Below the pieces are notes generated by a model. The model was given only the letters and a program-made list of their open reading frames with translations. It had not been told where the DNA came from and did not search any database. Below, piece after piece: positions 1 through 56,121 of a stretch of 64,000 nt of DNA; position 1 is the stretch's first letter; every line of letters begins with the position of its first letter. Source of the stretch: Branchiostoma floridae (Eukaryota > Chordata > Leptocardii > Amphioxiformes > Branchiostomatidae); NCBI RefSeq assembly GCF_000003815.2, contig NC_049996.1, forward strand, positions 14,388,067-14,452,066, read 5' to 3'. The position numbers and the translations under genes were made by a program.

Positions 1-231
1 ATCTACCAAAACAGCCGCAGGTGAGAAAGAACAAAATGATACTCATGTCATAATGAAAATGTATGGACAATATAGGCTTAAACACTTGACAATAAATAAG
101 CTAAACACTGTCTTCCCTGTGTAGGCAACAAGTGAAAAGTGGGTAAAATTCCTGATGAAAACTGAATCCAATTTGGGGAGTGACTGTGTTAGATTTAACA
201 AACAATTTACTGATTATAAAAGAGTGCATAC
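1..231 (-). other. Probable intron downstream of the large exon
   Basis: Read on the minus strand, the large exon that ends at 232 is followed by GTATGC, a normal 5' splice donor. Beyond it the frame stays open only about 130 bases and encodes sequence unlike the charged exon before it. I take this stretch as the start of an intron; the remaining exons lie outside the window. Confidence 0.6.
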
Positions 232-3200
232 CTGCTTCTATTGCCCCCAAGAAGACTGGGATCCGCGGAATCTTGGCCGGGCGGCTTTTCTGAGCGTCAG
301 ACGGCTTAAGAGTCTGCAGCCTTCGGCGAGCTTTCAGCGCTCTCCTCTCCTCTTCCTCATCTACTTCATTCTTCTTATCTTCTGTCTGTTCTGGGTTGGT
401 AGTGTTGTCCTGGCTGGGTGCATCAATCTTTGGTGTTTTTGGTCGGATGCTTGGGTCCAATGTTTCAGACGGGTCTTGCTTTTTCTCAACCGTAGACTTC
501 TCTTGGTTGGTAGCGTGCGACGATGCTGTACTACTTGCTTGTCGAGAATGAGAGCCTTTTGTCAGTGTATTCCTCCTCCGTCTCTCAGGCTGAGTGTTAG
601 GTTTGTACTTCTTTGCTGGCGGTTTTGGCGGAGATGGTTCAGCTTTGTGTTTCTCCACAGGTTTGGTCTGCGTGTGGTGAGGACGGTTTTGAGCATACGA
701 GTGTGAATTGACTCGGTTTCTGTAGTACCTAGGTGGTGTAGTTCCCGTAGGTAGGTTTGTCACCCTTCCCCCACCAATCCACGTCTGCATTTCTGGCTGT
801 TGTACGGGCTCACCGCTGATAGCCGAACTTCCCTTCGGCATCCGTCTGTGAGGTCTTGGCCCTGGTCGTGAGAAGCTCGTACTCCGACGTACTCCGGAAT
901 CTAGTGCGTTGTTTGCCGGCCTCTGTGTATCCCTTGCAGGCGCATCTTGGTTGGAATTCTGACTCATTCTCTCGTACCGTTGAGCCATAGTGTTTTGTAT
1001 GTGACTATGATTAGGCTCACTTGCATGTCTACCCCTGTAGTTCTGCGTGGTAACTCTGTTAGAAGGGTTACCAGTCACAGGGACATGGTAGCTGCTGTCT
1101 TGTTGTTGCTGGTAGGAAGGACCAGTCCTTTCTGGGTTGCCGTACCTTTGGTAGTCGTTAGGGGGCGCAATCTGTGACCACTGCTGTTGTGGTGGTGCTT
1201 CGTGGTGTGCTGTCTTTGTCTTGATGACCGGGTTGACCATATTGCGCTGTCCATAGTAGCTATTGTCATTCCTACCTTGACCAGTGAACATTTGACCGGA
1301 CATTTGTACGGGACCGTTAGGGTTGGGAGCTCCAAGCAGCTCTCTACGCATCTTATGCAAACTTGCTCGCTCTTGGTACCATCGCCTCTGTTCATACATG
1401 TAGGTCAAGTCTTGTGCAGTGCCTTGTTGGTCCGCTGGGGGCATATCAAAGCCATTCACCTGTCCAGGATACTGCAAATTCCCTTCAAAACCCTGCCAAT
1501 TATCAACATGGCTAGGAACATCCCCCATGCCTTCTTGAGCCTGGTGTCCCAAATTGTAACTTTTGGTGACATAGGCTTCCTCTCTTTGTTGATTCTTACT
1601 CTTCCTCCATTGTTTGAACTGCTGGAATTTGTCGGCAAGAGGTTTGAAGGCGCTTGCCAGTTTCTCCTTGGCAGTTTGGCCCCTTTCTACAGTTCTTGGT
1701 TGTTCATGGGAACGAGTTGCATCCGGGTTATCAGCTCTGTCCCAGGTTGGCTGACGATCCTGTAGTGGTTCACCATAGTTATGCCAGCTCTGATTCGGAA
1801 ACACATTAGGTGGGTGCTGGTACCGCAGGGGATTTCTGTGTGGCATTTGGTGGTTGCCTATCTGCATTTGGTGGTTGCCTATCTGCATTTCGTGGTTGCC
1901 TATCTGCATTTGGTCTTTAGGCCTTGCCCCCTCTGAATGGTCCAGTCCATTTCTATAGGTAGTACCAGGGTAAACCGTCTGAGGGCGCTGCTGGACGGTC
2001 TCCTGTCCTTGGTACTGAATCTGTGGAGTGGTGTTTACCGATGCTTGTTGAGCTGTACGATCCAGCTTTTCTGTCTCCGTGGCAACAAAACTTGGCTTTT
2101 CTATCATCACTGAGGCATTAAAAGCTGGCTCGGTAGTCATAATGGATGCTGTATCCAACATAGCCCTGCTATCAAACGTTGGCGCATTTGGGTTGAGGGA
2201 TTCTTTGTTGTTAGTTGAAGCATTTGGAGCAACATGCATCTTTGTACCCACAATGGTTCCATTTTGAGCAAAATCATGATCAGATTTCAAAGGGGGCACA
2301 TCCTGTTTATTTTGCTGCTGTATAGCCTTCTTGACCTCATCAGTGGTGGGCTCAGAATCAGATATGTCCTTGCTATGCTCAGGGTTGTCGCCAGGAAGTG
2401 CTGCTTGAATCATCATGTCGTTTACAGTGGGCGGTGTAGGTTTGTATGGCACCATCTTGACCGGATTAACGTTTCTCGCTGGTTCAGAAGAGGGTGCTTT
2501 GACCTCTTCAATGGTGGGATGAATCTTCTCCCTGTCATGCCCGAGGTAGTCGCAAGGGGGCGCTGATTGACTTGTCACGTCGTTTTCCAGCACGTTTCTC
2601 GCTGTCTCTGGAGGAGATGTTTTGACCTCTTCAATGACAGGCTGATACATCTCGTCATGCTCAAAGTTGTTACATGGAGGCACTGATTGTCTTATCATGT
2701 TTTTCGTTGGAGGTTTGTACGGCACCATCTTCACCGAAAGAACGCTTTTTGTTGGCACAGTGGCGTCGAGTTTCTCATTAGACGGCAGAACTTGTTCTGT
2801 CCCACACACGTTGCCTTGAATCTTGTTTGAAGCGTCAATTTCAGGATTAACTTTCTGGCCCAGAGACTGTTGGTACGCCGGTTCTGCTTTAGCGGTTGGC
2901 TCTGGAACTGCACCTGGAGCCAAAGTTTTTAGCGACGCCTCTGGTGTGGAGTCTACCATGAATGAAAGCATTGTTTCATTGTTAAGTATTGCTCGAACGT
3001 CTTTGGCACATGCTGTCTCTGTGGAAATCATGATTTTTCTTTCCGCTTTAGCAATTGTAGTTGATGTTTGAAATGCAGAAACAGCCGAAGACTTCTCGGA
3101 TGCGTCAGACATTGCGGCTGTTGTTGTTGGTACTTCTGACTGCTGTTGTTCCTCTAAGGCCGCCAAGGTTTCCATGGTTGGTCCGTGTAAGCCCGTGGGA

Positions 3201-6200
3201 GGTGGTGCAACATAAGGAACCATCTTTACATACAGCTTTTTACCCAGAGACGTATCAGGACATTTCAGGGTGGCGTCAGCGTGTTGATGCTTTAGTTTAG
3301 AGCTAAGAGAGACCGTGTCCCCTATTGGCTGTTTAGTCGTAGGGGATTGTGTCGTAGCTGGTTTTTGATTGGCCACAGTTTGCTTTGGCAGCTGTACGCC
3401 ATTCGTCGCCTTTGCCTCAGGTGCTGTCGTAGACTTTGGGCTTAATTTGGATGGATCGTCTTTGCTTGTAAATGATATGATTGGCTTAGATGGTAAAGCG
3501 GGTGGACTAACCTGTTTGCCTGTCTGTTTGGTGGCTGCTTTTTGAGGACTGGAGGCCACCATTTTGTGAGATTCTGGCTGAGGTTTCGTCATCGTTGTAG
3601 GTTTGGGAATTATGGTTGGGGTTTGTGCTGACGTCACTTGTTTATGTGCTGCCTCATCAGTTTTTGTGAATGAAGTCGTTGCTTTTAGCGCCACTGGCTG
3701 CGTCTGAAGAGTTTTCGCATGTGTTGCAGGCATGGAATCCACAGACGATACCACTGTTGGTTTCACTTGAACCGATGTCGTAGTGATAGAACATCCCGAC
3801 GGACCTGAAGAAGACTTCGAAGGCGTAGACTGAGGTCGGGGAGATGTCACTTGTTTTGTAGCTGTCGTCTGCGTCTGGTCAGCCACTAGTGATCTAACAG
3901 GTGAGGCTTCTGTCTGTGATGACGTCATAGAACGAGAAGACGAGGCCAGCTCCTGTACACGAGCAATTTGCTTGGACGCATGCGACGGCATAGTTGATGG
4001 CGCCATGACTTTGGCGTCTTTACTCTTTGCGTGAGATGACGTCATTTGTTGGACGACAGTAGACTGAATGACAGACGATTTTGCGGGTGTAAGCATAACG
4101 GGCTTCTCACCAGTTGGTGCAGTAGGGTCAAGAGCTGTCCGCTCTGTCGTATGAGTCAGTGATTTGGCAGCAGTTGGTTCTATCTGTGAAGGAGTCCTCG
4201 CCTTTTGAACCATACTTTGCACTTGTAAAGGTGTCATTTGTTTAGGGGTCATGGACTGAGACAGCGCCGGTGTTTGGACAGTTGGCGGCTTCACTAGCAA
4301 AGTCTTGGTGGCTGTAGCAGCTGCAGTTAGCATATGAGAATCTGCAGCTGTATTCAGAGCAGCCGGCTGCTCTTGAGACGAAACTTGTTTCTTGGCAGAT
4401 GTTGATTCGACTGGGCCAGGACCAGGTGACTTTGCCGCAGCATCTTGCACCTGGGATGACGTCATTGATCTTACATCTGTAGATTGCATCTGAGGCGCGG
4501 TAATTGATTTTGTGGCAGGTTGTTGCAATGGTTTAACAACAGCTACTTTTCCCAGTGCATCTAGCATCTTGGGCGACGGCACACTCTTGCCATCGCTTGC
4601 AGACAACTGGGTTGAAACAGTTGGTTTGACAATTGCAATCCGCAACTGAGTAGATTGGACGGTTGCTTCAGGTGCTTGCGAGGTCGCCACTGTTTTCACT
4701 GGTACAGATTGCACGCTAGACGGTGCAGTAGATGTAGTCGTAGTACTCTCTGCATTGTCTAGTTTTACCTGTGGTACTGACACTGGCGTAGACAAGTCTG
4801 GTATCGGGCGAGAGGTCGCGACCTTTCCCACTGCAGACGGCGTTGCCACTGGTTTGCCTGTATCAAGTTTCTCATTGGTCAGCTGTGGCTTAAGCGATGC
4901 TGATCCAGAAACGCCGCGTGTGACGCTGGAAGCTGTGACAGAGAGGGCTGCAGATGTGGATATCGGGGCTTGCTGTACATTCTTGGAAGAAGGCAGGGGC
5001 TTTTGCATTGTCGAATTTTCTTGAAAACCCGACTTTGTGTTGCGTTGGCTGTCCACTGAAAACTTAAGAGTTTCTTCAACATGGTTTTGCTTTCCAGTAA
5101 CTGCGTTTGATTGCATGTTCTCTTGCGCAGCTCCGAGAGACGTTTGAGCTGGAAGGATCTGTTTTGTGGTTTTTGAAAGCAACTCAGTTGGAGCAGCAGA
5201 ATTTGTTTGTTTTGGAGCGTGAGGAGATGAAACGGGTCTTTTCATCGGCTGTTCCCTTGGATCTTCAGCTGGCTTTGCCAATCCGTCTGAAGGTTGGACT
5301 TGTTGCTTGACCGTGACAAGTCCTTGAGAAGTAGAGGATGGTGACACTGAAATGGCTGATGTTGCTGTTTCTGTTGTCGCAGCTTGTGTGGTGACTTTTG
5401 TAACAGGTGTAAGCGGTGGATGCGCAGTTACTGTTACGGGAAGTCTCGATGAACCAGACCCACACGAAATGATCTTTGACGGTTCAGGTCTGTCAGGAGT
5501 CGCTGATGATGTAAGAATTCTACGTGTATCATCCTTGCTTACAGTAGAGACTAACGAAGACGTGGCTTTCATTGGTGGTTGGCCAATCACACTGACGTCA
5601 CCCTGACCTGTGACCTTCTTCACAGCAACGTCGCCGCCATTTTGTTTTCGTTGCACTAGGGTTTTTTCCTCTGCTATTCCGCCAGGTGGCGCTTTTGTAG
5701 AGGGCACGGAAGAGTCTTTTCCAGACACTTTGGTTTCCACCTTAGTCGTAATCTGTGTTTTAGTTCCTGGTGGCAAGGAGTTCGGAGTGTCCACATTTAG
5801 CTGTACATTTTGCTTCTGAATCTCGTGTTTTGTTTGGTTCTGAGTCACTTGTGCTTGCCTCTGGGTCTCTTGTTGTATCTGCTTCTCGGTCACCTCTTGT
5901 GTACGCTTTTGAGTCACTTGTTGGATTTGCTTCGGAGTCACTTCTTTTGTTTCCTGTTTAGTCACTTGTTTGGTTTGCTTCTGAGTTACTTCTTGTGTTT
6001 GAATTTTAGTCTCTTGCTTCTTAGTCACTTGTGTTTCCTGTTTTTGACTCACTTGTTGCGTTTCCTTCAGTGCCACTTGTGATTGCTTCTGAGCTACTTC
6101 TTGTGTTTCAGAAACAACGACATTCGGTTTATCTTTACTCACATTCACAGAGGAGCAACGTTGTTTTTCCGTAGGTTTTGGACTGGAGGTTTCTGCCTGA

Positions 6201-7432
6201 CGAAGCTCTACCAATTCCTTCCGAACTTCTTCCAGCCGAGCAGTTGTAGTGGTTTTTGGTGTTGGCACTGTTGCTTTTTCTGTGCATCGTGGCGACGAAG
6301 GTGGTGGCGGCGGAACAATTTTCTGCAAAGCTTCATCATTAGCTTGATCCACTGGAGTTTCTCCAACAGAAGCACTCGCCGAAGCGTTCGCGGCAGCTAG
6401 CTTGGTCGCCCGAGCGCGTCTCGACAAACCGTCGGTAAGAATTTGCAACTGTTCGGCATTTTCCGGAACCGAGCCCTCTCCTTTCGGCAGCTGCGGTCGG
6501 TACGCTGTGTAGGTCGGCTCGTGCGTTCTCCATTCGCTCGCGTACGCTAGCCGTACGGGCTTCTTAGTGATGAGGTCCTTGTTTTTACCTAGGGAAAGTA
6601 CATGCTGTCCAATGTAACACAGCCCATCGTAGTTACGCGACCCAGTAACTAGCAAAACCGAGGGAATAGGGATCACAATTACAAGGTCACCGTCAACGTC
6701 CAGATCGTCCATGAACTTGGCCATGGTGAACAGGGTAGCAGCCGCCAGAGATTTGTTCTTTTCCTCCAGTTTGACTTTGTACACCCCAGCTTTCACGGTC
6801 TCAAAAAGCTCGTCCCGTCCGAAATGCTTTTCTCCCTTTGTCCACAAGCGGTACATGTTGTATGAGGCTAACAGGAAGGCTAACTTCCCGGTAAAACCCC
6901 ATTTGTCGAAGAGAACCTTCTTGAGTGCAGTTATCTTTCCCTCCGCTCGGGGGAGCTGCATGATGGCCACCTTCGTGCCCGGGATGTTGCCGAAATTGAA
7001 GTTTGCGAAGTCAACGATGCTTTCGAGCGACCCTCCCTTCCCTCCAGCCATGATTTTGGGGATCAACATCGGAGCTACGTCATAAAAATCTTGATGGTGG
7101 AAAGCTCGTATCTTGAACTTAATGACTTGAACAATCCTTTTCTTAAGTTCTTGTAAGTCATGGATGTTAGCTTTCTTCAACTCCTTCGCTTCTTTAGTCA
7201 AATCCATGGTGAACTGGATTCGACGAGAGTTGGTTTGACTTACCAGCACGGTGATTGACAGCTCTCCGTCCGGTTCCCTGACTTCGGCGGTTTTCTTTCT
7301 GTCGAGAACCTTTTTCATCTCCATCTTGGTATGAAGGAAAACCTGGTGCATGAAGCCCTTGTACCATTTGGCCCAGTTGACGTGGATTTCGCACTGACAC
7401 TGGTTAGCCGCGTCTCCTCCGGCCATCGTCAT
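232..7432 (-). CDS. Very long, mostly disordered protein (one exon, 3' end outside window)
   Basis: I do not recognise this protein. The first ATG is at 7432; a second, two codons later at 7426, has a better context (A at -3, G at +4). The exon runs about 2,400 codons and ends at a donor (CAG, then GTATGC) at 231-230. Roughly the first 330 residues alternate hydrophobic and charged segments and look folded, with a W-x2-W-Y-K-G stretch near the start. The rest is rich in S, T, P, Q and K and looks disordered. It contains an eight-residue repeat of the form x-V-T-x-K-Q (about residues 440-540, DNA 5810-6110), three VKMVPY motifs (DNA near 3213-3230, 2716-2733 and 2443-2460), a seven-residue QIGNHQM repeat (near 1855-1915), and an arginine/lysine-rich C-terminus. 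No membrane segment is seen. It is head-to-head with the ankyrin gene. A scaffold or adaptor role is only a guess. Confidence 0.75.
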
Positions 7433-7798
7433 CTTACAAGTCAACGAGTGTTCGCTTGGGACGAAAGAAAATATACTATTTTCTCAGTTTCTCAAGAAAT
7501 AATGCCAAGTTTACGCCTTCGGCATCATTTCCGAGAGTTACCGTTGCGAGAACATCAGTTCGTCCGTGGAATAACGAGCGCGTCAACGTTCTCCAACACA
7601 AATAAACAAAACACAAAGAGGTTATTCGCGAACAATGACCCTCTGTGACGTCACGCGTCACGTGACCGTTCGTTCGAACGCCGATTCGATAGGTTCTCGA
7701 ACGTTCGGTAGCAACGGCGATGCCACGGTGACAGGTATTTGTTTGTTTGATTGTTTTCTTAGCAAAACACGACAGAAAGTACGAATTTTGCGGTCGAC
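7433..7798. promoter_or_regulatory. Divergent promoter with CRE and palindromic E-box
   Basis: Only 366 bases separate the start codons of two divergent genes. The stretch holds a full CRE (TGACGTCA, 7646-7653) and five bases on a palindromic E-box (TCACGTGA, 7658-7665), the USF/MITF-type core. Several TTCGAACG-like CpG-containing repeats follow at 7668-7710. There is no obvious TATA box. Shared control of both genes is inferred from the layout. Confidence 0.6.
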
Positions 7799-17778: not shown

Positions 17779-18245
17779 CTAGTCTTCAGCAACTGAGACG
17801 GAGGTCTCTTGGTTCTCATCAGCTCCGTATATGACTGGAATCGAGTGTTTGTCACCTGTTTGTGTCGTTGCCATAGAAACGGTGCCGTCGTACAGTCGAC
17901 TATCATCCTCATTCTTTGGTACGATAGCAATGTCTGCCTCCGCTGCTGATGCGTAGAAGGTGACGGGGTCATCATCATCATCAGTGTCGTCATCTGAAAT
18001 GTTCCAGTACTGATGGGGAAGGGATGTTGGTCTTGGTGCGCCGTCGCTTGTCTCGGTTGGGACTGTTGTATGGAGAGAGGCATCGATAGAAAGGCGTCGT
18101 TGGCGTCCTCGAACGGTATCGGCGTCGTGTTTTGTCGCGTGGCGAGTGGAGTTCACGAGGGTGCCCGGGGTTTCCCGACGGGTGCCGATTTCGTCCGAAT
18201 TCGGTCGGGGTGCAGAGTCAACCGGGTTGTCCGGTATTTCCCAAT
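17779..18245 (-). pseudogene. Severed C-terminal tail of the LRR receptor
   Basis: Minus-strand open frame of about 155 codons encoding a cytoplasmic tail: YWEIPDN, SAPRPNSDE, GTRRE, LVNSTR, then QYWNISDDD, an acidic DDDTDDDDD run and a final stop at 17779. The block from YWEIPDN to LVNSTR is nearly the same as residues 668-701 of the LRR receptor at 23979-26324 on the same strand. It has no start codon, signal or membrane segment of its own. I read it as the last ~155 codons of that receptor, cut off by the transposon at 18246-24110. A separate paralogous gene fragment is a less likely alternative, because the joined reading frame fits exactly. Confidence 0.8.
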
Positions 18246-18317
18246 ACGCCCTATTCACGTATGACGCAATCTAGCACCAAAACGAGGCGTGGAACGCACG
18301 AACAACATCGGGACAAT

Positions 18318-20941
18318 ATGGCGGCGTACCACTGTTGTGTGCCATCCTGTGTTAGCGATTCGCGCTACGATATCGGTAAAAAACTCACATTTCACCGTAT
18401 CCCTCATGACAAGCAACAGCGCAGAGAATGGATTGTAAAGATCCGCAGAGATGTCGGAAAGAATTTCAAGGTATTTTCGCATTATTTCGTAATGTTGTGG
18501 TTGGTGTAACGTTACATGCATGTTGGGGTGGGGGAGGGGCAGGGGCGTTAACTGGGTGTGACAGTTTCTAAGCTATTATCTTTTGTGGACAAGTTCTCGC
18601 CGCACAAATCTCAGACTTTTTTCTCAGAATATGCTCCGAGTTGTCTCCTATTTGTAAATCCTGAGTTTCAAGCCGATCCAAGCATCCAAAGTGACATTTT
18701 CTTTGTTTGGACCTTTGTTTACTTGCGTATTTTCTAGCGAATATCCATAAAGGCCCCGCAAAATATCGCTCGCACAGTCGGTGTTTAAAGATCAGCCACT
18801 GCCCGTGAATACTCAAGAAAATGTCCCTGTATGTCTGCGAAGTTTCCTTACTGTATAAGCATTTCATGTTCCTTTCTTAGCAAACTTTCCGCCGTCAATA
18901 TCGGCATTTTCAATTGAATTTTGAGACTCGTGCAGTGCGGACTTGTGCCTATTAAAATGTAAGGCGTTATATTTCTCGCACAAATCTCAGACACACCAGC
19001 TTATTTGAAGTTGTGATTACATTCAGTACATGTAGTATATCACATTTGATACCTTACAAAATTCGGTTAACTAGCAACAAATAAGATACATGTATATAGT
19101 ATTACATAATATATATATTATACACTAAAGCTAATCCAATGAAGTGGTCTTTATAAATATACCCTTCAAGCAGATGTTTAATTGGAAGAGACTTTTGATT
19201 TGAGTATCTTTGTCTAAGATGGTCTCATAATAAATGATCTACTTTATTGACTAATGGTCTGAGCTAGGACCTGAGTTTTCTGTACCAGTACCCACCCCTA
19301 GCCTGAGCTATTGATGTGTAATCAAACAGTAAATATATATACAGATAGTGAACAGAAATCTGAATATGGTAATATTTGTATATTACAATATATTCTGAAT
19401 GATCACAACCAATATACAACATGTTCTTCAATCAATTCTAGATATCATCTGCAACCCGTGTGTGCTCCGAACATTTCCATGAGAAAGACTTTCTCAGAAC
19501 ACTGTCCGGTCTAACACGGCTCAGGCCAGGAGTCATACCATCAGTATTCCAGTGGACAAAAACGACTACTGAGAGGCCCGCGCCAAAGAAGCGTTCCAAT
19601 GAGTAAGAGTTTATCATATTTGTGTACTGACCTACATTGCTCATATCTATGTTGCAATAATAAAGTTTATTTACGCATACATCCAGTCATTGTTATCCAC
19701 TGACATGTAAAAATATGTCAAATTTAAAAAAACTCAGAATTATGCAATACATTATGGAATGTTGATAGTTTTGCAGGTTTTCATCTCCATAGCTCATAGA
19801 ATTTTCTGTTTTGTATTTCAGTGTTGCTCCAGACCCATGTGTAGGCTGTGATGAAGGAGTGGCAGCTGATGGTCCAGTAGACACTACACCGGCACCATCA
19901 GCTGACCATGACTATTCCTCCACCCCTGTTCCTGCAGAGAGTCAGCTGGCAGCTGCCCAGGCAGAGATTGCCAGACTGCAGGAAAAGGTTAGACAACTGG
20001 AGCAGGAAAAGTTTTTCCTTGATAGATTTTCTTCTGACCCCCAAGCAATTAGTTTTTACACTGGCTTTAATAATTATCAAACATTAGTTAGCGTTTTCAC
20101 ATCTTTAGAACCTTCAGCTAATAACATGATCAGGTGGACTCAGATGCAGAGACATTCATCTAATATGAACAATGTTAGAATGTCATCTTTTAATGATTCA
20201 AGTCTTCCTCTTATTGACCAGTTTTTCATGTTTTTGTGCCGTGTGAGGCAGGGTCTTGCAGAGAATGATTTAGCTGTTAGGTTTGGTGTGTCCCAGTCTT
20301 CTGTTAGTAGGTTGTTAATCACCTGGGCAAATTATTTGTACTTCATGTTGGGCAGTTTGGCAATTTGGCCTTCTCGGAGTGTTGTTGATAAGAATATGCC
20401 AGAATGTTTCCGTAAGACCTACCCAAAGACAAGAGTTATACTTGACTGTACAGAGCTAAAGGTGCAGACTCCAAGTTCTAAGGTACTTAATTCTGAAACA
20501 TATTCACAGTACAAAAGCCACACAACATTTAAGGGTTTAATCGGAATTACACCATGTGGGGTCCTGTCCTTTGTCAGCACACTGTATACTGGATGTATAT
20601 CAGATAAAGAAATCACAGCTAGATCAGGAATAGTTGACCTTATTGAGCCTAATGATTCTGTTATGGCTGATAAGGGGTTTCTGATACAGGACCTACTGGA
20701 CAATAAACAAGCAATGTTAGTGATCCCCCCATTCCTTGGCAAGAAAGGAAAGTTCTCTGCCACTGAAGTTAGTCAGACCCATGGGATAGCTAGGTTGAGA
20801 ATACATGTGGAGAGGGCCATCAGGCGGGTAAAGGAATACCACATTTTTGATGGAGTAGTCCCACTTTCACTTGCTCCGTCAATCAACCAGATTTGGACTA
20901 CTTGTTCGATTCTGACAAATTTCAGGGGACCCTTATTCTAA
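18318..20941 (+). CDS. THAP-domain DDE transposase (ISL2EU-type), three exons
   Basis: The model is join(18318..18470, 19442..19602, 19822..20941), 477 residues, GT-AG introns with phases 0 and 2 fitting. Residues 1-90 are a THAP zinc finger: Cys6/7 and Cys11, a Trp in EWIVKI, Cys59-x2-His62 (VCSEHF), and a GVIPSVF motif. A short coiled coil lies at about 144-171. A helix-turn-helix near 246-276 (LAVRFGVSQSSVSRLLITW) matches the transposase HTH_4 type. The DDE_Tnp_4 core follows with Asp313 (ILDCTELK), Asp388 (MADKGF) and Glu435 (HVERAIRR). It should bind the element ends and catalyse cut-and-paste transposition. No stops or frameshifts are seen, so it may be active. The start has ATGGCG context and lies 72 bases inside the left terminus. 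Confidence 0.9.
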
Positions 20942-23063
20942 TAAGGGAAGTTGATAGATGAAGCAAGTGAAAATGGGACTCCTCCATAAAAAATGTGGTT
21001 TATTTGTTTGCATCGCACTAAAAAGTATAAAGATGAAATGAAGACCAAAAATACATAATACATTTTTTTGTACTAGTTATTCTACTCAATATTAACATTT
21101 GATGCTACTTTCTGCCCCTCACATTTTTTTGGAGTTCTTCATGTATTCTCCTGAAGTGGGTCACCAAATTGTGTTAGAAATTCCTGAGACAAAGGCATGA
21201 TTAAAACAAATTTGACAACATCTATTACTAAGTATTAGAAAAGCCCCTATTATATTGTTCTTGGCACTGTAACATTCAAGACTACAAAATGCTTGTTTAT
21301 CGTCCAGTAGGTCTTGTATCAGAAAAGAATATGTTATATACAATTGTTTGTGCTCAATAGTGCTTAGAAACCATTTAAATGTATGAAGCTTGGAGTCTAT
21401 ATCTCAAAGCATTAATAATCTTTTCGAGGGCACCAAATTTTCTTAACTTCTGGCGCAATTTTCGCATGGAAAGACGTGTGCTCTCAATATTACTCTTGTC
21501 TTTGGGTTAATTTTTGTCTGAGGGCACCAAATTTTCTCAACTTCTGGTGCATTTTACATGGAAACATGTGTATATGACATATATGACCGTGTTGTATTCT
21601 GTATATCCCACCCTCATAAACATAAATTTGAATCTATAGTTCTTCATGTATGTTTTTATCCTGTTGTAGACTCTGGCATAGTCTTATCAACAACACTCCT
21701 ATTGTAACTAACTTATCTTATATTTCTATGAATACCAAAGTTGTATGGTATGATTAAATATATATGTCTTAAGACCAAATCATTATTTGTAAAACAATAC
21801 ATATTGAACAGAATCAAATAGATACAGCAGATTTTATGAATCTTGACATTACATTTATTCACAATGGCATTTTATATATGACCAGATGTGGTTTGCAAAT
21901 GATCATGTTGTACCAACAAACTGAAATGTCTCCAACCTTGTAACATTGTAAGGTAGTCTGAGGCAATATTTTTCCTAATCCATTAGTTGAATACTGTGTA
22001 CTCATGTAATGAAGGTGTTACGTTGGGAAACTATGTACAAGATGCTTTCAACAAATCTACCATTCTTTAGTTGTCCAAATAAACTAGCCTAAATACCAAC
22101 TGGTAATGATTTATTACCGTAACCACATGTTTTCTAAATGGTGTTTTACTTCTTGCTGTTTCAGATACATTATACTATTGTTACTTGAAAAAAGATAGAA
22201 GATAAGTGTTATCATATTATATATTGTATATTGTAGAATGTATTTCATATGATGGGTATTTTTTTTATATTTTATAATCTGCATCTGAGTCCACCTTTTT
22301 ACAAATATGCCTGCAAGTTTGTACAGAATAAAGTCTCTAGTTGATATTTGATTTGCACAAAAAACATATTTCTTGTGTAATTATATATTATTAAGCAATG
22401 TTTTGTAACATCAACCTGTCTTTATATGTCTTAAGAAGTGAGAAAAATTGAACCTGTACAGACCAGAATTCATTAGCCATTGTTGATATCATATTCTTAT
22501 TGGCATTGAGCATGGGCCAGCAGCTGCCACTTATTAAGCTTTATTGCCTGATAACTGTACATACATGTTTCTAAGAGCATAAATATACAATAAAGGCAAT
22601 AAATTCATTTAGTCATTAAGAAATCTTGAGCTTGGTGTCATCTCTGAATGTCAGCTTCATGACTACATGTACAAATTGAAAGCTATTTAGGCAGTTATGG
22701 AGGGGGAGCGGTGCTGTTAGTGTGAAGTGTAGGGCCGACTATCATTTGGAAGGCATTGAAAATACTGTAATATTAACAACATATGCTTTTTTGAAATGGT
22801 AGATAATGACTTCATATAGATTATATACATGACAACCTTATTTACATATTCAATTAGAGAAGGTCACAAACTCATTCAGTAAATGGTAGGAATCATATTT
22901 GTGACATGCTACTAATACATAGAAGTGAGCATTGCAAGTTATATATTGCAAATTAGATAGATTACATTTCCATAGTTTAAAACATATTTTTCTCTTTCTG
23001 AAGGGATATATCTTATCTAAGTCATCTTCAGATTTTTGTTAACTTCAGATTTTGATTGACATG
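20942..23063. other. Spacer between the convergent transposon genes
   Basis: AT-rich and non-coding, inside the transposon. It holds a direct duplication near 21426-21560 (GAGGGCACCAAATTTTCT twice, about 104 bases apart) and a short inverted copy of a transposase segment at 21287-21330. The rest shows nothing I recognise. Confidence 0.7.
21287..21330 (-). repeat. Inverted copy of a transposase segment
   Basis: Read on the minus strand, this stretch matches the transposase codons for LIQDLLDNKQA (about 20685-20716) with few changes. It is a small inverted duplication inside the same element, or a remnant of an older copy. Confidence 0.65.
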
Positions 23064-24046
23064 TTAGTTTTTGCACATCTGTGGCAGATGGAACAGGAAG
23101 AAGAAACTATCTAGGGCAGTTTTCATAGAGCACCACAGATCTTCGTTAAATGCAATGCGCTCCAAATGATAGTCATCCCTACACTTCACCAGAAAGTCGC
23201 ACCACTTCTCCCCTGTCAGGCCCATCTGCCCCATCACCTGGTAGTAGTAACTGTGGGTGGATTTTAGTTTGTAGGTGCCATTGTTTTGCTTCTTTAAGTA
23301 GGGGCATGAATAGAATGAGTCTTTGTCAGGGCACTTTATTTCTAATAGGCCATGAGGGGTTTCAGAATTTGGGTCATACACTTTCCTATCAGGTGATGCT
23401 CCCAGGTGTGGGGCAGATGGGTTGATCACAAACCCAGACAGGTAGACATTGTTGCCAGTGACTTCAGAATACAATTTGTGATTACTGAACATATCAATGG
23501 GTGTCTGTCACCAATATGACTATGGACGGTGATGTAATATTATAACTGGAGAAGACGAGCGTAAGGCGGAGCTACTAGAACTAGTATCGGCACCCCGTCG
23601 GCCCCCAAGCACTTCCAGCGCCGCAGCGCCCAGCAGCGAAAACTTGGCCACGCCCCCAGCCGCCTTATGTTACCGCCACGGTAACAAGAAGCGTCACGTC
23701 ACCATTACGGTAACCAAAGCCGGCAGGGGGTGTGGCAAGTTATGTCAGGCTTGTGTAATGCTGTTTGGGTGCCGACAGGGGGCGCTGATCCAGTACACCA
23801 GTAGTAGTAATGTATGCCGCGCGCGCTAGTCTTCGGGCAAAGTAATGATACAAAACAGACAACATAAAACCACGTACCTTCAACGTCGTGCACATAGCCT
23901 TCAATAAAATTTGAATACCCCTTCTTCTGTTGTGACAGTGGAATTTTCGCCGACTTTTTTGCCCATGCGTCGACGCTATCAAACGTCAAGGGCGGTATAT
24001 TGCCTAGGTACTTGGTCCACTGTGTTACGGACCACGAGGACGCCAT
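23064..24046 (-). pseudogene. YqaJ-like exonuclease gene of the transposon, internally disrupted
   Basis: Two coding pieces are visible on the minus strand. The first (24046 to 23878, good donor AAG then GTACGT) gives a 56-codon N-terminus, MASSWSVTQW to EGYVHDVE. The second (about 23504 to 23064) has the YqaJ/lambda-exonuclease signature: GASPDRKVYD, then LLEIKCP (the E-x-K nuclease core), then YYYQVMGQM and WCDFLV. These enzymes are DNA exonucleases that accompany ISL2EU transposases. Joining the two pieces directly shifts the frame into a stop, and the Cys/His-rich middle part expected in this family is missing. The 370 bases between them are GC-rich and unrelated, and hold a plus-strand open stretch (about 23533-23829) of doubtful meaning. 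I conclude that the gene has lost its middle and probably cannot make the nuclease. Confidence 0.75.
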
Positions 24047-26324
24047 TTTGTTTTTCTTGCGTTCCAAGCCTCGTTTTCGTGTAAACATGGCCGCGGCGTG
24101 AATAGCGTGTATAATGTGCCTCGTCAAGCTCGTTCGGTGTCGCCTGCCGAGTGGAGTTCACGAGGGCGTCCGGTATCTCCCAATAATGGAGATCGCCGCA
24201 CTCGGCCGTGGTCGGCTGGCGAGTCGAGTTCACGAGGGCGCCCGAAATTTCCCGACGGGTGCCGACTTCGTCCGAATTCGGTCGGGGAGCAGAGTCAGCC
24301 GGGTTGTCCGGTATTTCCCAATAATGTGGAGCGTCGAGTTCTCCCGATGTCTGTATGTGAGGGGAACCTACGAGCGCGTCCGGGATCTCCCAGTAATGAG
24401 GGGCATCAAATGACGTTGACCTGGTCAGATGCGACCTCCGACGACGGGCGCCTGTTCTGTTCTGATTCGCAAGATTAGGCAGCGAATTTTGCCGTTGGAG
24501 ATGCGTGCATCTGTCTAACCTGTCAAAGATTCGGACGTCCCGAAGTGCCACAACCGGAAGTGACGACTGTCTCGTTCTTTCATCTCTGCCTTCCATGGAT
24601 ACAGTCGTAGTCGGTTGACCTTGACGACGAGTGTCTGTACCGTTGCCATGGAAATGGGAGATTCTGTCATTGTTTCGTGCAGCCAAACGTCGTCTTCTAT
24701 AGAGGTAAGCCAAGGCAAGCCCCAAACAGAACAGCCCGACTGCGGTCAGCACCAGAATTGAGCCTACAGTGATATGTTGTTTTCCAGACTGGTCTTCATG
24801 TACCACTGTTTTGCTAGTAACGATGGTACTTGTTGTTGCAAGTACTACAGTGGTATTGTACGTGGCTGTATTGTACGCGTTTGTATTGTACTTGGCTGTG
24901 TTGTACGTGGGATTGCTGGAAACTTGGTTCTCATGGCACATTTTGCTTGCGGTGATTTTTGTGGGATCGACTTGAAACGAAGAGATGGATACATTATCTG
25001 GGGTAAGCGAAAGACACGTCACATTCATGTTTTCTGGATCTTCACCGGTCTTATTTTGCTCTATGGTTCCTTCTGGACTATTCGACTTGTTTCCCGTTTT
25101 TGGTGGCTGCTCATCGAATACCAGCGCCACCGTCTCATGTGTGAGATTTCTGAGGGTTTCCGTATCCATGGTTACAAGCCGAATGTTAAGACGATCATTC
25201 ACGGGCAACTTTATTCCTTTTTCGTGCTTCCAAGCAAGAAGACACTGCTCGTTTTGAGATGCCTCTGATTTAGCCGAAACAAGAACAAACGGTGACACGA
25301 CAATCGCTGTCTTTGCAGGAGTCATTGCTCTAGCCGGTAACCAACAAGGGGAGGTGCCAAAAATGTCATTTTCGGATCCATGCTCCTTCCACTGTACGCG
25401 ATATTCGTTCTCCTGGCCAGTGTATATTGAACAGAAAAGGTAATTCTCGATAACAGCAGTTACATCTAGTCTCAGAGCGCTTACATGAAGCATAAGGCTC
25501 CACAATTTTGTTACATCAGCATCGCCATGGGTGTTTGAGAGTTTTATAACCACCGTTGACATGGCGTGGTTGGTTAAACCGCGAAATATCTCAGCACTCA
25601 AACATGCCCTTACCAACCTGTTCCTGCTCAAGTCCAAGATCTGGAGCTGCTTCAATGATTGGAAGGACCTACCAGGGATTGTTTCAATGTGATTTAAACC
25701 CAGAAACAGTCCCTTTAGCATATCAAGTCCCAGAAAAATAGATTGGTCTACATACGTCAGCTGGTTCCCCCATAGTACCAATTCCAGAAGACCCGTGAGG
25801 TTTTGGAAACAACCCGGTTCTAGGTGTGCAATGTTGTTGTGCGAGAGAGACAAGGTACGGAGATGTTCAAACACAACAGGTAAACCTGTGAACCACTCGG
25901 TTTTTACCTCCGTCAGGTTATTGAAGTCCAAATGCAAGTCCATTAATGCGGAAAGGTTTGCGAATGTGTTCTGTTCTATGTCCGTAATGTCTGTATCAAC
26001 CAGGGCAAGGTACTGCAATTTTGTCGGCTCGGGCACGGGTAGCTTTGCCGCCGACAGGACACCGAACGGAACGCCCCTCACCCCTACCCAAGTTGGGTGG
26101 CGAAAACATGAGACTTTAGGGACTGGGTCTTTTGAGTCGCGGTCGCAAGTAATACAAGGATGGTTGATGTTTCTAGTCTTGAACCAACTGTTCCGAAACT
26201 GTAGACGGCCGTCAGAACAGCTTCCCCAGCTGCACGTAGGGGGGCACGTATCCATTGTGGTGGCGGATTGCACGACACAAAACAACAGCAGCCATACCTT
26301 CAGAGCACTAAGGTGACGTGCCAT
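23979..26324 (-). CDS. Leucine-rich-repeat transmembrane receptor, tail interrupted by transposon
   Basis: Residues 1-20 are a signal peptide (VWLLLFCVVQS). A Cys-rich LRRNT-like cap covers about 27-73. LRRs of the xLxxLxLxxNxL type follow at about 102-238. An ectodomain with many N-x-S/T sites and a YNT-repeat stalk (near 473-491) leads to one membrane helix (about 518-541) and an RRRR stop-transfer. The cytoplasmic tail carries HYWEIPD at 643, 667 and 713. Tyrosine in a Y-x-x-I context suggests phosphotyrosine docking, an inference. A fourth motif begins (HY at 737-738) and the transposon follows at once: residues from about 739 to the stop at 23979 are transposon sequence. The native tail continues at 18245-17779. 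As it stands the receptor would lack its last ~155 residues. The exact family is not assigned; TIR and death domains are absent. Confidence 0.85.
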   Translation of the reverse strand: MARHLSALKVWLLLFCVVQSATTMDTCPPTCSWGSCSDGRLQFRNSWFKTRNINHPCITCDRDSKDPVPKVSCFRHPTWVGVRGVPFGVLSAAKLPVPEPTKLQYLALVDTDITDIEQNTFANLSALMDLHLDFNNLTEVKTEWFTGLPVVFEHLRTLSLSHNNIAHLEPGCFQNLTGLLELVLWGNQLTYVDQSIFLGLDMLKGLFLGLNHIETIPGRSFQSLKQLQILDLSRNRLVRACLSAEIFRGLTNHAMSTVVIKLSNTHGDADVTKLWSLMLHVSALRLDVTAVIENYLFCSIYTGQENEYRVQWKEHGSENDIFGTSPCWLPARAMTPAKTAIVVSPFVLVSAKSEASQNEQCLLAWKHEKGIKLPVNDRLNIRLVTMDTETLRNLTHETVALVFDEQPPKTGNKSNSPEGTIEQNKTGEDPENMNVTCLSLTPDNVSISSFQVDPTKITASKMCHENQVSSNPTYNTAKYNTNAYNTATYNTTVVLATTSTIVTSKTVVHEDQSGKQHITVGSILVLTAVGLFCLGLALAYLYRRRRLAARNNDRISHFHGNGTDTRRQGQPTTTVSMEGRDERTRQSSLPVVALRDVRIFDRLDRCTHLQRQNSLPNLANQNRTGARRRRSHLTRSTSFDAPHYWEIPDALVGSPHIQTSGELDAPHYWEIPDNPADSAPRPNSDEVGTRREISGALVNSTRQPTTAECGDLHYWEIPDALVNSTRQATPNELDEAHYTRYSRRGHVYTKTRLGTQEKQNGVLVVRNTVDQVPRQYTALDV

Positions 26325-28454: not shown

Positions 28455-28488
28455 TTGTTATACTGGTGTTACTGCTGTGTTATAAGCG

Positions 28489-28956
28489 ATGGAGGAAGTT
28501 GGTACCCAACCAGACACCTTCATCCCGGCCACAGCCGACCTCGAACCGCCCAAACCCGACAACCAGGCGGCACCCGAGCGCCTTCGTCCCGAACCGTCGT
28601 TCGACTCGAAGCCTCCCAACAAAGTCGGGCGGGCTTTACTCGTGGTGGGTTACCTGTTGGGGATATCTGCGGGTGCGATCGGGCTGGTGGTGTTCTACAG
28701 TTTCTTTTGGACCGGAGACGCCGAGCTGTTCCCGTCGACCGGCGGTGGGATGAACGCGACAACCCCGGCGGCGCCTGGCGCGGGAGACGGCGGCGGTGGT
28801 GAGGGGAATGATGGCGGGAATGATGGCGGCGGCGGCGGCAATGGCAACGGTGGGGACATGGACGGAGGGTCGACAACGACCGGTGGAGATGAAGAAATAA
28901 CAGCCACAGCTTCCGCCACTACAGACCCAGCCACACAACCGCGACTTTCACCTTAG
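28489..28956 (+). CDS. Small single-pass membrane protein, paralogue 1
   Basis: Intronless, 155 residues. Residues 1-45 are polar and proline-rich, with no signal peptide (MEEVGTQP start, PEPSF motif). Residues 49-71 form one membrane helix (GRALLVVGYLLGISAGAIGLVVFY) ending in SFFW. A short GDAELFPSTGGG motif, an N-A-T glycosylation site and a long Gly/Asp/Asn/Thr-rich tail follow. The positive residues before the helix and the sequon after it suggest N-terminus inside and C-terminus outside, an inference. Two paralogues follow in the same orientation at 30363 and 33030. I do not recognise the family. Confidence 0.75.
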   Translation: MEEVGTQPDTFIPATADLEPPKPDNQAAPERLRPEPSFDSKPPNKVGRALLVVGYLLGISAGAIGLVVFYSFFWTGDAELFPSTGGGMNATTPAAPGAGDGGGGEGNDGGNDGGGGGNGNGGDMDGGSTTTGGDEEITATASATTDPATQPRLSP

Positions 28957-30342: not shown

Positions 30343-30362
30343 TTGCTGAAGAGTTGTAGACC

Positions 30363-30743
30363 ATGGAGGAACTCGGTACCCAACCTGTTACGTCTTTACC
30401 AGTGGACCCAGCCGGTATAGAACCGCCAAAGCTTGAGGACGGACCGCAGCGTCTTCAACCCGAACCATCCTTCGAGAAGCCTACCAACAAAGTCAGGCGG
30501 GCCTTGCTGGTGGCTGGTTACCTGTTCGTGATCTCCCTGGCGGCTATAGTGCTGGTGATCTACTATAGCTTCTTCTGGTTCGGCGACGCCGCGCTGTTCC
30601 CCTCGACTGGTGGCGGGGGAATGAACGTTACGACCGCGGCGCCTGGCGGTGGAGGCGGCGGGGGCGGTGGTGAAGGCGGGGATGGTGGCAACGGAGGGAC
30701 GGGGACTACCGCTGCCGCGACTACCATGGCCCCACAAGCCTAA
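30363..30743 (+). CDS. Small single-pass membrane protein, paralogue 2
   Basis: Intronless, 126 residues. It matches paralogue 1 through MEE(V/L)GTQP, the PEPSF motif, TNKV-RRALLVAGYLFVISLAAI (membrane helix about 46-69), YYSFFW, GDAALFPSTGGG and an N-V-T sequon. The Gly-rich tail is shorter and ends in TTMAPQA. The start has CCATGG context. It has a MITE family C copy right after it, as does paralogue 1. No function is assigned. Confidence 0.75.
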   Translation: MEELGTQPVTSLPVDPAGIEPPKLEDGPQRLQPEPSFEKPTNKVRRALLVAGYLFVISLAAIVLVIYYSFFWFGDAALFPSTGGGGMNVTTAAPGGGGGGGGGEGGDGGNGGTGTTAAATTMAPQA

Positions 30744-35299: not shown

Positions 35300-37252
35300 T
35301 TAGATTTTATAGATATTTACTGGCATACCCCCTACCAGACTAGAAACAATTAGACACCGCCCATCACGTGATAGAGCCACGCCCATTGGTGCAAACAGCC
35401 CGTCATGCTTGGTGATCACGTGCTTGACGAATGTTCCATCCCGACCGAACTTTGACACGCGATCGTTACGGCAATCTGCTACAATTATGTTGTCGTCACC
35501 ATCCACGAAAACACCGGTAGGGCAGAAGAGTTGTCCGTCCCCTTTACCATACCCTGCTATGGTACCCACACGATTCCCCACCATATCAAACACACTGATG
35601 TTGTTACTACTCGGATCACTGATGATGATTTGGTCTCTACTGTTGGTGGCAATGTACAGCCTCCAGGCAGATCGTACAGTTTTACGGGTCAGCAACTTTT
35701 TGAGCTCCTCGCTTCCCACAAAACTGCATTCAATGCCACCGTTAGGAAGTAACACATACACCTGTGCACCCATAGACACTATGATATGGCCAGGCTTGTT
35801 TGCTGCTATACCCTGCGTACTATACCGTTGATCGGCATCCTCTACATTAACGGCGTCTTTCTCCGCCCCACCACTGGTAAAGATGTGGATGTTGCTTCCA
35901 TCTCCTGTGACGTACACGTTGTCGTTTGAATACGCCACGTCCTTAGGTTCGAAGGTCAAGTCAACGGTTTTTCTGACGTCAAAGGTCTCTCCGTTGAAGA
36001 TCTTCAGCACTCGTTGCCCGGCGACGATGACGTCACCGGGGGCGGTGACCGCTAGACTGAATGACCGTGGTCTGCCGCTCTTCCATTGAGTGGTCAGTCC
36101 TCCCAGTGACGTCACAGTTTCTTCCCGATTTTCCCGCGGAGAGGTCTCTTCCATGAAGTTATCTGTCTTCCCTACTTGACCAAAAAGCGACTCGACTTCG
36201 GCTTTGACATCTTCCCTCTCTACTTCAAAAGTGAGGCCTTTGGATGCTTTTGTTGATAGTCCGTCTTTGTTTCCCGATTCAAAGCTTTTCATCTTCAAAC
36301 TGTCCAGTCGATCTGCCAGACAACCGCTAAGGGACAATATCTCCGTTGAGTTACCGTGGGCTAAAAGTGTTTGGGAGAGGTCTATGTGGGTCTTGTAGGA
36401 ATCTAGAAGCTCTTCTTGCTTTCCAGATGTACTCTCTACCTTGTACTTGAGATTTTCTTCCAGCTCTTTGAGACAGCGTTCTTCTGACTCGCGTACGAGC
36501 TGGATAAGATACTGGGAACGCTCGTGAATTTGTTGGCGAGATGTATCATACTGTTCCGACGCCCTCTTCGCAGTCTCCTCCGCCATGTCGAGTTTTCTCC
36601 GCTGGTTCTCCACGCAAAACTGTGCCTCGTCGATTCCTTTCTCGATTCGCTTCAGCCCCTTCTCCCTGGCTTCCGTTATCTCGACGAAATCGTGCAGCTT
36701 GTGTGTTTTGACGACACAGTGTGCGCAGAGAACCTCACGGCAAGTGTTACAGTAGAGAACGCTCACCTCGCCATGGTCTTTACACTTCGTCGCTTCGCTC
36801 GAGCTCTCGGTGGCAACCACCTTCTGTGTTTCTGACAGGTTGTCCGCTATCCACAGTTCGTGACGGTTAAAGGTGTCCGTCAGCCTGTGGGCTTCCTCAC
36901 AAGCCACGCAGAGATACTTCATGCACTGAAAACAGTAGAATGCAGCATCTTTCTCGTCTGACTCACAGTCCGTGCAACTGGCTCTTACAACCTTTGTGTT
37001 GGGATCCCTTTGTACATACAGCTTTGCCACAAGAGTGTTGTCCGGCAAACTCTGTACGCCGCCTTGTGACAGAGGGGTGTCCTGGCCGCACGTTGGACAC
37101 GTCAACGCACCGCCGGTTGCCGGGATGTTCTCGAGACAACTCCGGCAAAACGTGTGAAGACATGTCAACACTTTGGGTTGATCGAAAACTTTAGAGCAGA
37201 CTTTACAGAGATGATTTTGGCTGGAAAACGAAGCGGTTGGTCGAGACGCCAT
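35300..37252 (-). CDS. TRIM-like RING / B-box / coiled-coil / NHL protein
   Basis: Intronless, 650 residues. The RING finger at 16-55 has the C3HC4 pattern (C16, C19, C31, H33, C36, C39, C52, C55). A first B-box starts at C93-C96 and a second lies at about 155-190 (CKDHGE...CNTC...CAHC...HKLHDF). A long charged coiled coil covers about 190-310, then a linker. Six-bladed-propeller NHL-type repeats fill about 390-650; the clearest is QLFCPTGVFVDGDDNIIVAD, with CRNDRVSKFGRDG after it. The architecture is that of TRIM2/3/32/56/71-like proteins: probable E3 ubiquitin ligase with a substrate- or RNA-binding propeller, cytoplasmic. No filamin domain is seen between coiled coil and NHL, unlike TRIM2/3/71. 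Such genes are greatly expanded in amphioxus, so orthology is not claimed. Confidence 0.9.
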   Translation of the reverse strand: MASRPTASFSSQNHLCKVCSKVFDQPKVLTCLHTFCRSCLENIPATGGALTCPTCGQDTPLSQGGVQSLPDNTLVAKLYVQRDPNTKVVRASCTDCESDEKDAAFYCFQCMKYLCVACEEAHRLTDTFNRHELWIADNLSETQKVVATESSSEATKCKDHGEVSVLYCNTCREVLCAHCVVKTHKLHDFVEITEAREKGLKRIEKGIDEAQFCVENQRRKLDMAEETAKRASEQYDTSRQQIHERSQYLIQLVRESEERCLKELEENLKYKVESTSGKQEELLDSYKTHIDLSQTLLAHGNSTEILSLSGCLADRLDSLKMKSFESGNKDGLSTKASKGLTFEVEREDVKAEVESLFGQVGKTDNFMEETSPRENREETVTSLGGLTTQWKSGRPRSFSLAVTAPGDVIVAGQRVLKIFNGETFDVRKTVDLTFEPKDVAYSNDNVYVTGDGSNIHIFTSGGAEKDAVNVEDADQRYSTQGIAANKPGHIIVSMGAQVYVLLPNGGIECSFVGSEELKKLLTRKTVRSAWRLYIATNSRDQIIISDPSSNNISVFDMVGNRVGTIAGYGKGDGQLFCPTGVFVDGDDNIIVADCRNDRVSKFGRDGTFVKHVITKHDGLFAPMGVALSRDGRCLIVSSLVGGMPVNIYKI

Positions 37253-37689
37253 TGTAGATTTGCCCTCTGACTAGAAGTCGTATGATGCCACGAAATGTTC
37301 AACAATGAATGCACTAGAGTAGATAGGCGTGACAATGCCTCATCATCTGATGGTGTTGAATATTTTATAAGGTAGGCAAAACGCACCTATTGTAATATCC
37401 CATGTAATACCCCTTGATTGCACTCTCTCTGATGGAATTTTGCAATATAGTTGAGTACCCACTGGCGTGAAGCTATTCTGTCTCTAACAATAGTCAAGGA
37501 TGTCCTCAAATGTTCTGAAACGTGAGAATATTATGAAAACGTAAGGATGCCTGGTACATAAATGAATATAACTATATATTTTCTGTTACCAAGAAAGAAA
37601 AAAAATCGCAGCCTTAAACCTCTTGTAGCCAAATGTTATCATAAAAGAAGGGACGCGCTAAGTTTATTAGAATAAGAACAGCTGTGTTT
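37253..37689. other. 5' flank of the TRIM-like gene
   Basis: AT-rich, with no second gene visible. Presumably contains the TRIM-like promoter. Confidence 0.4.
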
Positions 37690-55628: not shown

Positions 55629-56121
55629 AACAACGCTGTTACCGCCCCCCTCCCCACAATTATCGTACCTCCTACCGTCTGTTTCTCGTCTTGTGTCAAC
55701 CCTTGGATGTCACCTTCATCAAAACCGGCGTTATCGTGTCCCTGTCTCCAGTTCCTGGTCTCGGAATACCCATTTGTACGTCAAAACGCTTAGAATTTAA
55801 CAGGAACAGTGGACAACTTGACAAAACCACGTTTTCCAAAGTTTCAGGCCAGGGGTCACATACATTAGTGACATCTAGCGACCTAAATACAAAGTGCAGT
55901 AGCAAAAGGTTTCACACACGGTCTAAAGGCGCCCCTATGCGGTTCATTTACAAAATACAGGGCTTGAAGTTGGCTTTGCCTAGTGATACCGAAGTTACCT
56001 GTATTTCATATTGGCCCGTACGCGTATGGAGGTAAATGAACGACACGAAAGACCGTTGCCATGGTAGATAACCTTTTTTTAGGTATAAGGAAGGAGGTAT
56101 CGCTCACAAGAAGCACATCGC
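55629..56121. other. Non-coding, no feature seen
   Basis: Flank of the LINE; nothing recognised. Confidence 0.4.

Follow-up and report, generated by a model that had tools for sequence, protein, structure and literature searches.

In a window of 64,000 nucleotides from the Branchiostoma floridae genome (contig NC_049996.1, positions 14,388,067 to 14,452,066 of the forward strand; all coordinates below count from the first base of the window), we analyze a leucine-rich repeat (LRR) receptor gene whose tail-coding region is interrupted by a 5,865-bp transposon of the ISL2EU type. The arrangement as a whole, its effect on the gene included, is best explained by a jump of the transposon into an AT dinucleotide within the repeats that encode the receptor tail, an account that we consider very probably correct. 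The insertion would have proceeded by cut and paste, catalyzed by a transposase of the ISL2EU family, and leaves the receptor frame interrupted after codon 738 of 892. The features that define the interrupted gene and the insertion site are listed below, with the evidence used to delimit each of them.

17779..18245, minus strand: cut-off 3′ part of the receptor gene, 154 residues and the original stop codon (joined frame open to the stop; 113-nt repeat)
18244..18245, no strand: target site duplication AT, left copy (junction sequences)
18246..24110, no strand: ISL2EU-type transposon, 5,865 bp (junctions, domains, duplication)
24111..24112, no strand: target site duplication AT, right copy (junction sequences)
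24113..26324, minus strand: 5′ part of the LRR receptor frame, with signal-like N-terminus, LRRs, transmembrane helix and a tail with YWEIPD motifs (Pfam, PDB relatives, hydropathy, motif lists)

Junctions and internal empty site

Both borders of the element were located by inspection of the sequence and by script. The left junction reads ...TTTCCCA-AT|ACGCCCTATTCACG, which makes 18246 the first base of the element, and the right junction reads CGTGAATAGCGTGT|AT-AATGTGCC, with 24110 as its last base. The receptor frame, which lies on the minus strand, runs to DEAHY and then into the element; excising the element together with one AT yields DEAHYWEIPDNPVDS... in frame, and the resulting frame of 892 residues is open up to the stop. 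Two of the seven joining offsets tried stay open to the end, one reading YNWEIPD and the other, the exact join, reading DEAHYWEIPDN and being the only one to restore the YWEIPD motif. The predicted junction of the empty site is CCCAATAATG / CCCAATAATGTG.

An earlier note on this DNA had claimed that an ISL2EU element splits the tail of an LRR receptor at a join that can be read to the base, and that removal of 18246-24110 and one AT (or ATA) gives DEAHYWEIPDN in frame. The scripted analysis recovers the same borders and the AT duplication, and the restored reading is specific to the exact join. Of the two duplications allowed by that note we retain AT, which is preferred because AC then starts both ends of the element, ATA being an alternative that the empty site alone does not separate from it.

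The receptor gene also contains an internal control for the empty site. A 113-nt tail repeat at 18134-18246 shares 91% identity with 24211-24323, and the joined site aligns with the intact repeat from 24211 over 141 ungapped columns spanning the junction, which falls after column 112 (102/112 matches before it, 20/29 after it). Since this alignment runs through the junction against an unbroken repeat unit, the gene holds a paralogous empty site of its own, and its two halves belong together; the conclusion that 17779-18245 and 24113-26324 are one gene is thus supported. The earlier note had named an origin of the tail at 17779-18245 in a different gene as a finding that would overturn its reading, and this origin is contradicted by the open joined frame and by the ungapped alignment of the repeat. 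The idea that the halves are different genes, or that the assembly is chimeric, draws on the 5.9-kb distance between them and on nothing more, and we regard it as extremely improbable: two separate genes are ruled out by the 2-bp duplication, the matching terminal repeats and a motif that no join but the exact one restores, features that would also be unexpected for a mis-assembly.

The present receptor frame encodes 781 residues, of which 738 are native and 43 are encoded by the element. It is identical to the 892-residue joined frame over the 738 native residues, and 154 native residues are lost beyond the insertion, in agreement with the 43 added and about 155 lost residues proposed at first. 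Pfam identifies LRR_8 on the present frame (9.7e-30), and its nearest PDB relatives are LRR proteins (best match LRRC15, 2e-35). The N-terminus appears signal-like as judged by eye, and a single transmembrane helix following the LRR ectodomain is predicted at residues ~518-542 from hydropathy only. The joined frame contains five YW[EN]I motifs (Y644, Y668, Y714, Y738 and Y817), and one of its eight tail tyrosines (Y714, LHYWEI) conforms to the strict pattern of the immunoreceptor tyrosine-based inhibitory motif (ITIM), [SIVL]xYxx[IVL]. The cut-off 3′ part holds the rest of the fourth YWEIPD, the YWNI motif at Y817, and Y835, Y856 and Y877. A search of viral contigs with the receptor pattern gave no match.

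The element, its genes and their antisense patches

18246..18307, plus strand: left terminal inverted repeat (self-alignment)
18318..20941, plus strand: transposase gene, 477 residues, THAP, HTH_Tnp_4 and DDE_Tnp_4 (splice scan, Pfam)
20950..22531, minus strand: six colinear antisense patches of transposase coding sequence (self-alignments)
22722..22758, plus strand: patch antisense to the final YqaJ stretch, within the 3′ region of the YqaJ gene (partner 23153-23189, 89%)
23064..24046, minus strand: YqaJ gene, incomplete (Pfam, splice scan)
24049..24110, minus strand: right terminal inverted repeat (self-alignment)

The terminal inverted repeats match at 12 of their 14 outer bases and are imperfect over ~62 bp. 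The transposase gene comprises three exons delimited by GT-AG sites (18318-18470, 19442-19602 and 19822-20941), and its spliced product of 477 residues matches THAP (4e-17), HTH_Tnp_4 (4.9e-13) and DDE_Tnp_4 (4.4e-40). Since 24 combinations of splice sites in total leave the frame open, the exon ends given here are one selection; with the top-scoring donor of each of two regions (18470/71 and 19602/03), a single exon-3 acceptor (19822) keeps the frame open. On the opposite strand, the first exon of the YqaJ gene encodes 56 residues (24046-23878) and is followed by a good donor at 23877, and the YqaJ domain (7.2e-13, model positions 65-149 of 150) lies in the open stretch 23507-23064. The segment between these parts, 23508-23877, has a GC content of 54%, versus 37% for 18246-23507, and contains an imperfect hairpin of 39 nt; the first half of the YqaJ domain was not found in it. 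This GC-rich segment is perhaps a small nested insertion, or repair filler, in the middle of the gene. Among five acceptors tried, one (23461) would link this exon with the downstream part of the gene, giving an open frame of 188 residues, from which a shortened YqaJ protein with an incomplete domain could possibly be produced.

Assignment of the element to the ISL2EU type is supported because THAP, helix-turn-helix (HTH) and DDE domains fall in one spliced frame, a YqaJ gene lies on the opposite strand and the target duplication is AT. The pairing of a DDE transposase with a YqaJ nuclease pointed out in the earlier note is thus borne out, with the qualification that the YqaJ gene is incomplete. 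Searches with the transposase pattern matched five stretches in viral contigs and seven in genome contigs, none of them confirmed, and Rfam at gathering thresholds returned nothing in the window.

Past the transposase stop, in the gene's own 3′ region, the six antisense patches (20950-20999, 21290-21325, 21488-21507, 21672-21702, 22278-22296 and 22513-22531) range from 19 to 50 nt and have their partners within 19858-20887. They follow one another in strictly colinear, reversed order, with unrelated sequence between them and identities of 44/50, 34/36, 19/20, 28/31, 19/19 and 17/19, respectively. Self-alignments show no clear similarity between patches. A chance origin is ruled out by the global alignment score (167.8, versus 13.7 ± 6.3 and a maximum of 41.4 in 200 base shuffles) and by the 19-nt windows with at least 17 matches between 18320-20941 and 20942-23060, which number 68 in inverted and 0 in direct orientation. 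Protein-level conservation between families is likewise ruled out as their source, given that most silent sites agree too. A direct repeat of ~64 nt (21416-21479 and 21508-21571, 83%) flanks patch 21488-21507, as if this patch had arrived with a local duplication.

We find it likelier that the patches are what is left of a formerly longer inverted copy, whose unstable palindrome would have been broken up by insertions and deletions. Alternatively, the antisense copies that each of the two transposon genes carries in its 3′ region might be kept for pairing, so that the transposase message would fold back on itself and tune its own translation or its targeting by small RNAs as a built-in brake, a model to which we attach little credence and which finds its only support in the predicted pairing. 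In a predicted RNA fold of 19823-22560, taken as a putative span of the message, the partners are paired almost fully by five of the six patches and not at all by the sixth, and the fold energy is -781, five shuffles of the 3′ part giving -653 ± 8; the pairing falls partly at codons beside the presumed catalytic residues of the transposase. Conversely, the 14 differences between patches and gene (six silent and eight replacing, three of the 14 being G:U-compatible) look neutral, and kept RNA pairing is disfavored because of this and because one of the six patches is unpaired in the predicted fold. Nothing bearing on the patches turned up in literature listings for transposase genes that are inverted or self-complementary, or for the removal of transposons from exons by splicing. 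Should other copies of the element carry the patches at matching positions, they would acquire wider interest for transposon self-control.

Transcript fate and age of the insertion

23979..23981, minus strand: receptor-frame stop codon inside the element (frame translation; 101 nt upstream of donor 23877)

The receptor gene is transcribed in the same direction as the YqaJ gene of the element, and transcripts initiated at the receptor promoter would therefore enter the element along that direction and reach a stop after 43 foreign codons. Donor 23877 has the highest score of the region scanned (5.4), followed by donors at -0.8 and then at -1.3 to -1.8, and exceeds the two donors of the transposase gene, which score 2.0 and 0.0. 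As a general rule, mRNA decay is triggered when a stop codon precedes a splice junction by more than ~55 nt, and with 101 nt between the new stop and this strong donor the receptor mRNA is a decay candidate. Judging from these predicted sites, decay of the interrupted transcript is likely, and at least as likely as the making of a truncated receptor; the allele would most likely be a null or a strong hypomorph. The earlier note had envisaged a receptor without its last residues, and this stands for the frame, truncated to 738 native and 43 added residues; the making of the truncated protein is rendered doubtful by a stop placed before a strong donor. If mRNA were to escape decay, the product would comprise the ectodomain, the transmembrane helix, the three YWEIPD motifs at Y644, Y668 and Y714 and the only strict ITIM, with the last 154 residues gone. 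Since the helix, these three motifs and the strict ITIM are retained in the truncated frame, loss of signaling does not follow from truncation.

The element might instead be spliced out, wholly or nearly so, as an intron, in which case a near-complete receptor would still be made. Out of 896 donor-acceptor pairs scored, 108 keep the frame to the end of the tail. The best of those starting in the element join donors 24011 (-1.7) or 24032 (-1.8) to a good acceptor at 18009 (3.8) and would restore the last 76 residues; they are outscored by the best in-frame join, from native donor 24371 (-0.8) to the same acceptor, with a product of 727 residues. These donors score little under the weak donor of the transposase gene (0.0), but they are weak nonetheless (-0.8 to -1.8), and the far stronger donor 23877 lies just past the stop. 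The transcript could moreover end before 18009 is reached, at one of the AATAAA signals that the receptor-gene strand carries at 23340, at 22545 and beyond, and we deem splicing over the element unlikely.

These in-frame joins do count against the proposed insertion with loss of receptor function, together with the use of simple splice matrices, the base 3′ of the duplication, which is A in place of the conserved T reported in excerpts of PMC4482050, and the nature of the evidence, which comes from one genomic sequence.

The cut-off tail beyond the element, still open over 154 codons, is the only yardstick for the age of the insertion and places a weak bound on it. In simulations of neutral drift (4000 runs per setting), the probability that the tail remains open at 5% substitutions is 0.52; it falls to 0.09 when every ten substitutions are accompanied by one indel, and drops further at higher divergence. 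The insertion, which the earlier note took to be recent and perhaps confined to one haplotype, hence need not be very recent, and a very old one is unlikely, since a tail open over 154 codons is at odds, in these simulations, with great age in the absence of selection. This bears on a further alternative, an old insertion that has reached fixation, with the truncated receptor and its 43 added residues serving as a functional form with a short tail. The open 781-residue frame, with ectodomain, transmembrane helix and one strict ITIM (LHYWEI, Y714) retained, would suit such a form; the open tail, though compatible with moderate age, speaks against great age without selection, and the stop is placed where mRNA decay is expected, all of which makes this alternative quite unlikely.

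Other features of the window and comparison with known systems

Elsewhere in the window, an open frame of 2,460 codons (104-7483, minus strand) has no Pfam match at E 0.01. Two similar small open frames (28486-28953 and 30360-30740) are 71% identical in DNA over 353 aligned positions, and the first, the only one of the pair covered by the scan, carries an InaF (TRP-interacting helix) motif. The window also contains a TRIM-NHL type open frame of 656 codons with RING, B-box and NHL domains (35303-37270, minus strand) and a fragment of a retrotransposon that matches reverse transcriptase and RNase H (53685-55709, minus strand).

The comparisons that follow draw on excerpts of the cited papers. 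ISL2EU transposons belong to the PHIS / Harbinger-like superfamily (PMC4482050, PMC9179366), and the present element resembles those described in pairing a THAP, HTH and DDE transposase with another gene, for a YqaJ exonuclease domain, and in its AT duplication, with terminal repeats inside the reported range of 6-259 bp. It differs from them in its incomplete YqaJ gene. ISL2EU elements duplicate AT with a target preference for A|AT|T (PMC4482050); the present site, A|AT|A on the plus strand, fits at the 5′ A and not at the 3′ T of what is a preference and not a definition. The colinear antisense patches constitute another difference, such patches going unmentioned in the excerpts of both papers; the word "antisense" has no occurrence in PMC9179366, the one of the two searched for it.

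The receptor resembles BbLcLRR, an inhibitory LRR receptor of amphioxus with tail tyrosines in an ITIM or ITIM-like context (PMC8211107), in combining LRRs with an ITIM in the tail, a likeness of description; unlike BbLcLRR, it has a tail of repeated YWEIPD in which only Y714 is a strict ITIM. The string "YWEI" is absent from the main text of PMC8211107 and from that of PMC10199209, which describes another amphioxus LRR receptor, without a YWEIPD tail.

A transposon interrupting a gene is an ordinary event of a kind already known, seen here unusually clearly. As a natural allele with an internal empty-site control, it offers a clean test of a transposon truncating a repeat-tailed, immune-type receptor, and a test case for what becomes of such alleles, be it degradation, splicing over the element or retention. 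Heterozygosity in amphioxus is high (PMC12500494), which decides nothing on the present insertion. Lancelet genes that vary between individuals are enriched in defense and immunity families (PMC12373286). That study scores whole-gene absence, whereas the present case is an interrupted gene, and it lends no direct support to variation in LRR receptors, because its main text never names them (no occurrence of "leucine-rich" or "LRR"). If the allele proves polymorphic in lancelets, it would add a specific mechanism, the interruption of a receptor tail by a transposon, to the variation in defense and immunity genes described there.

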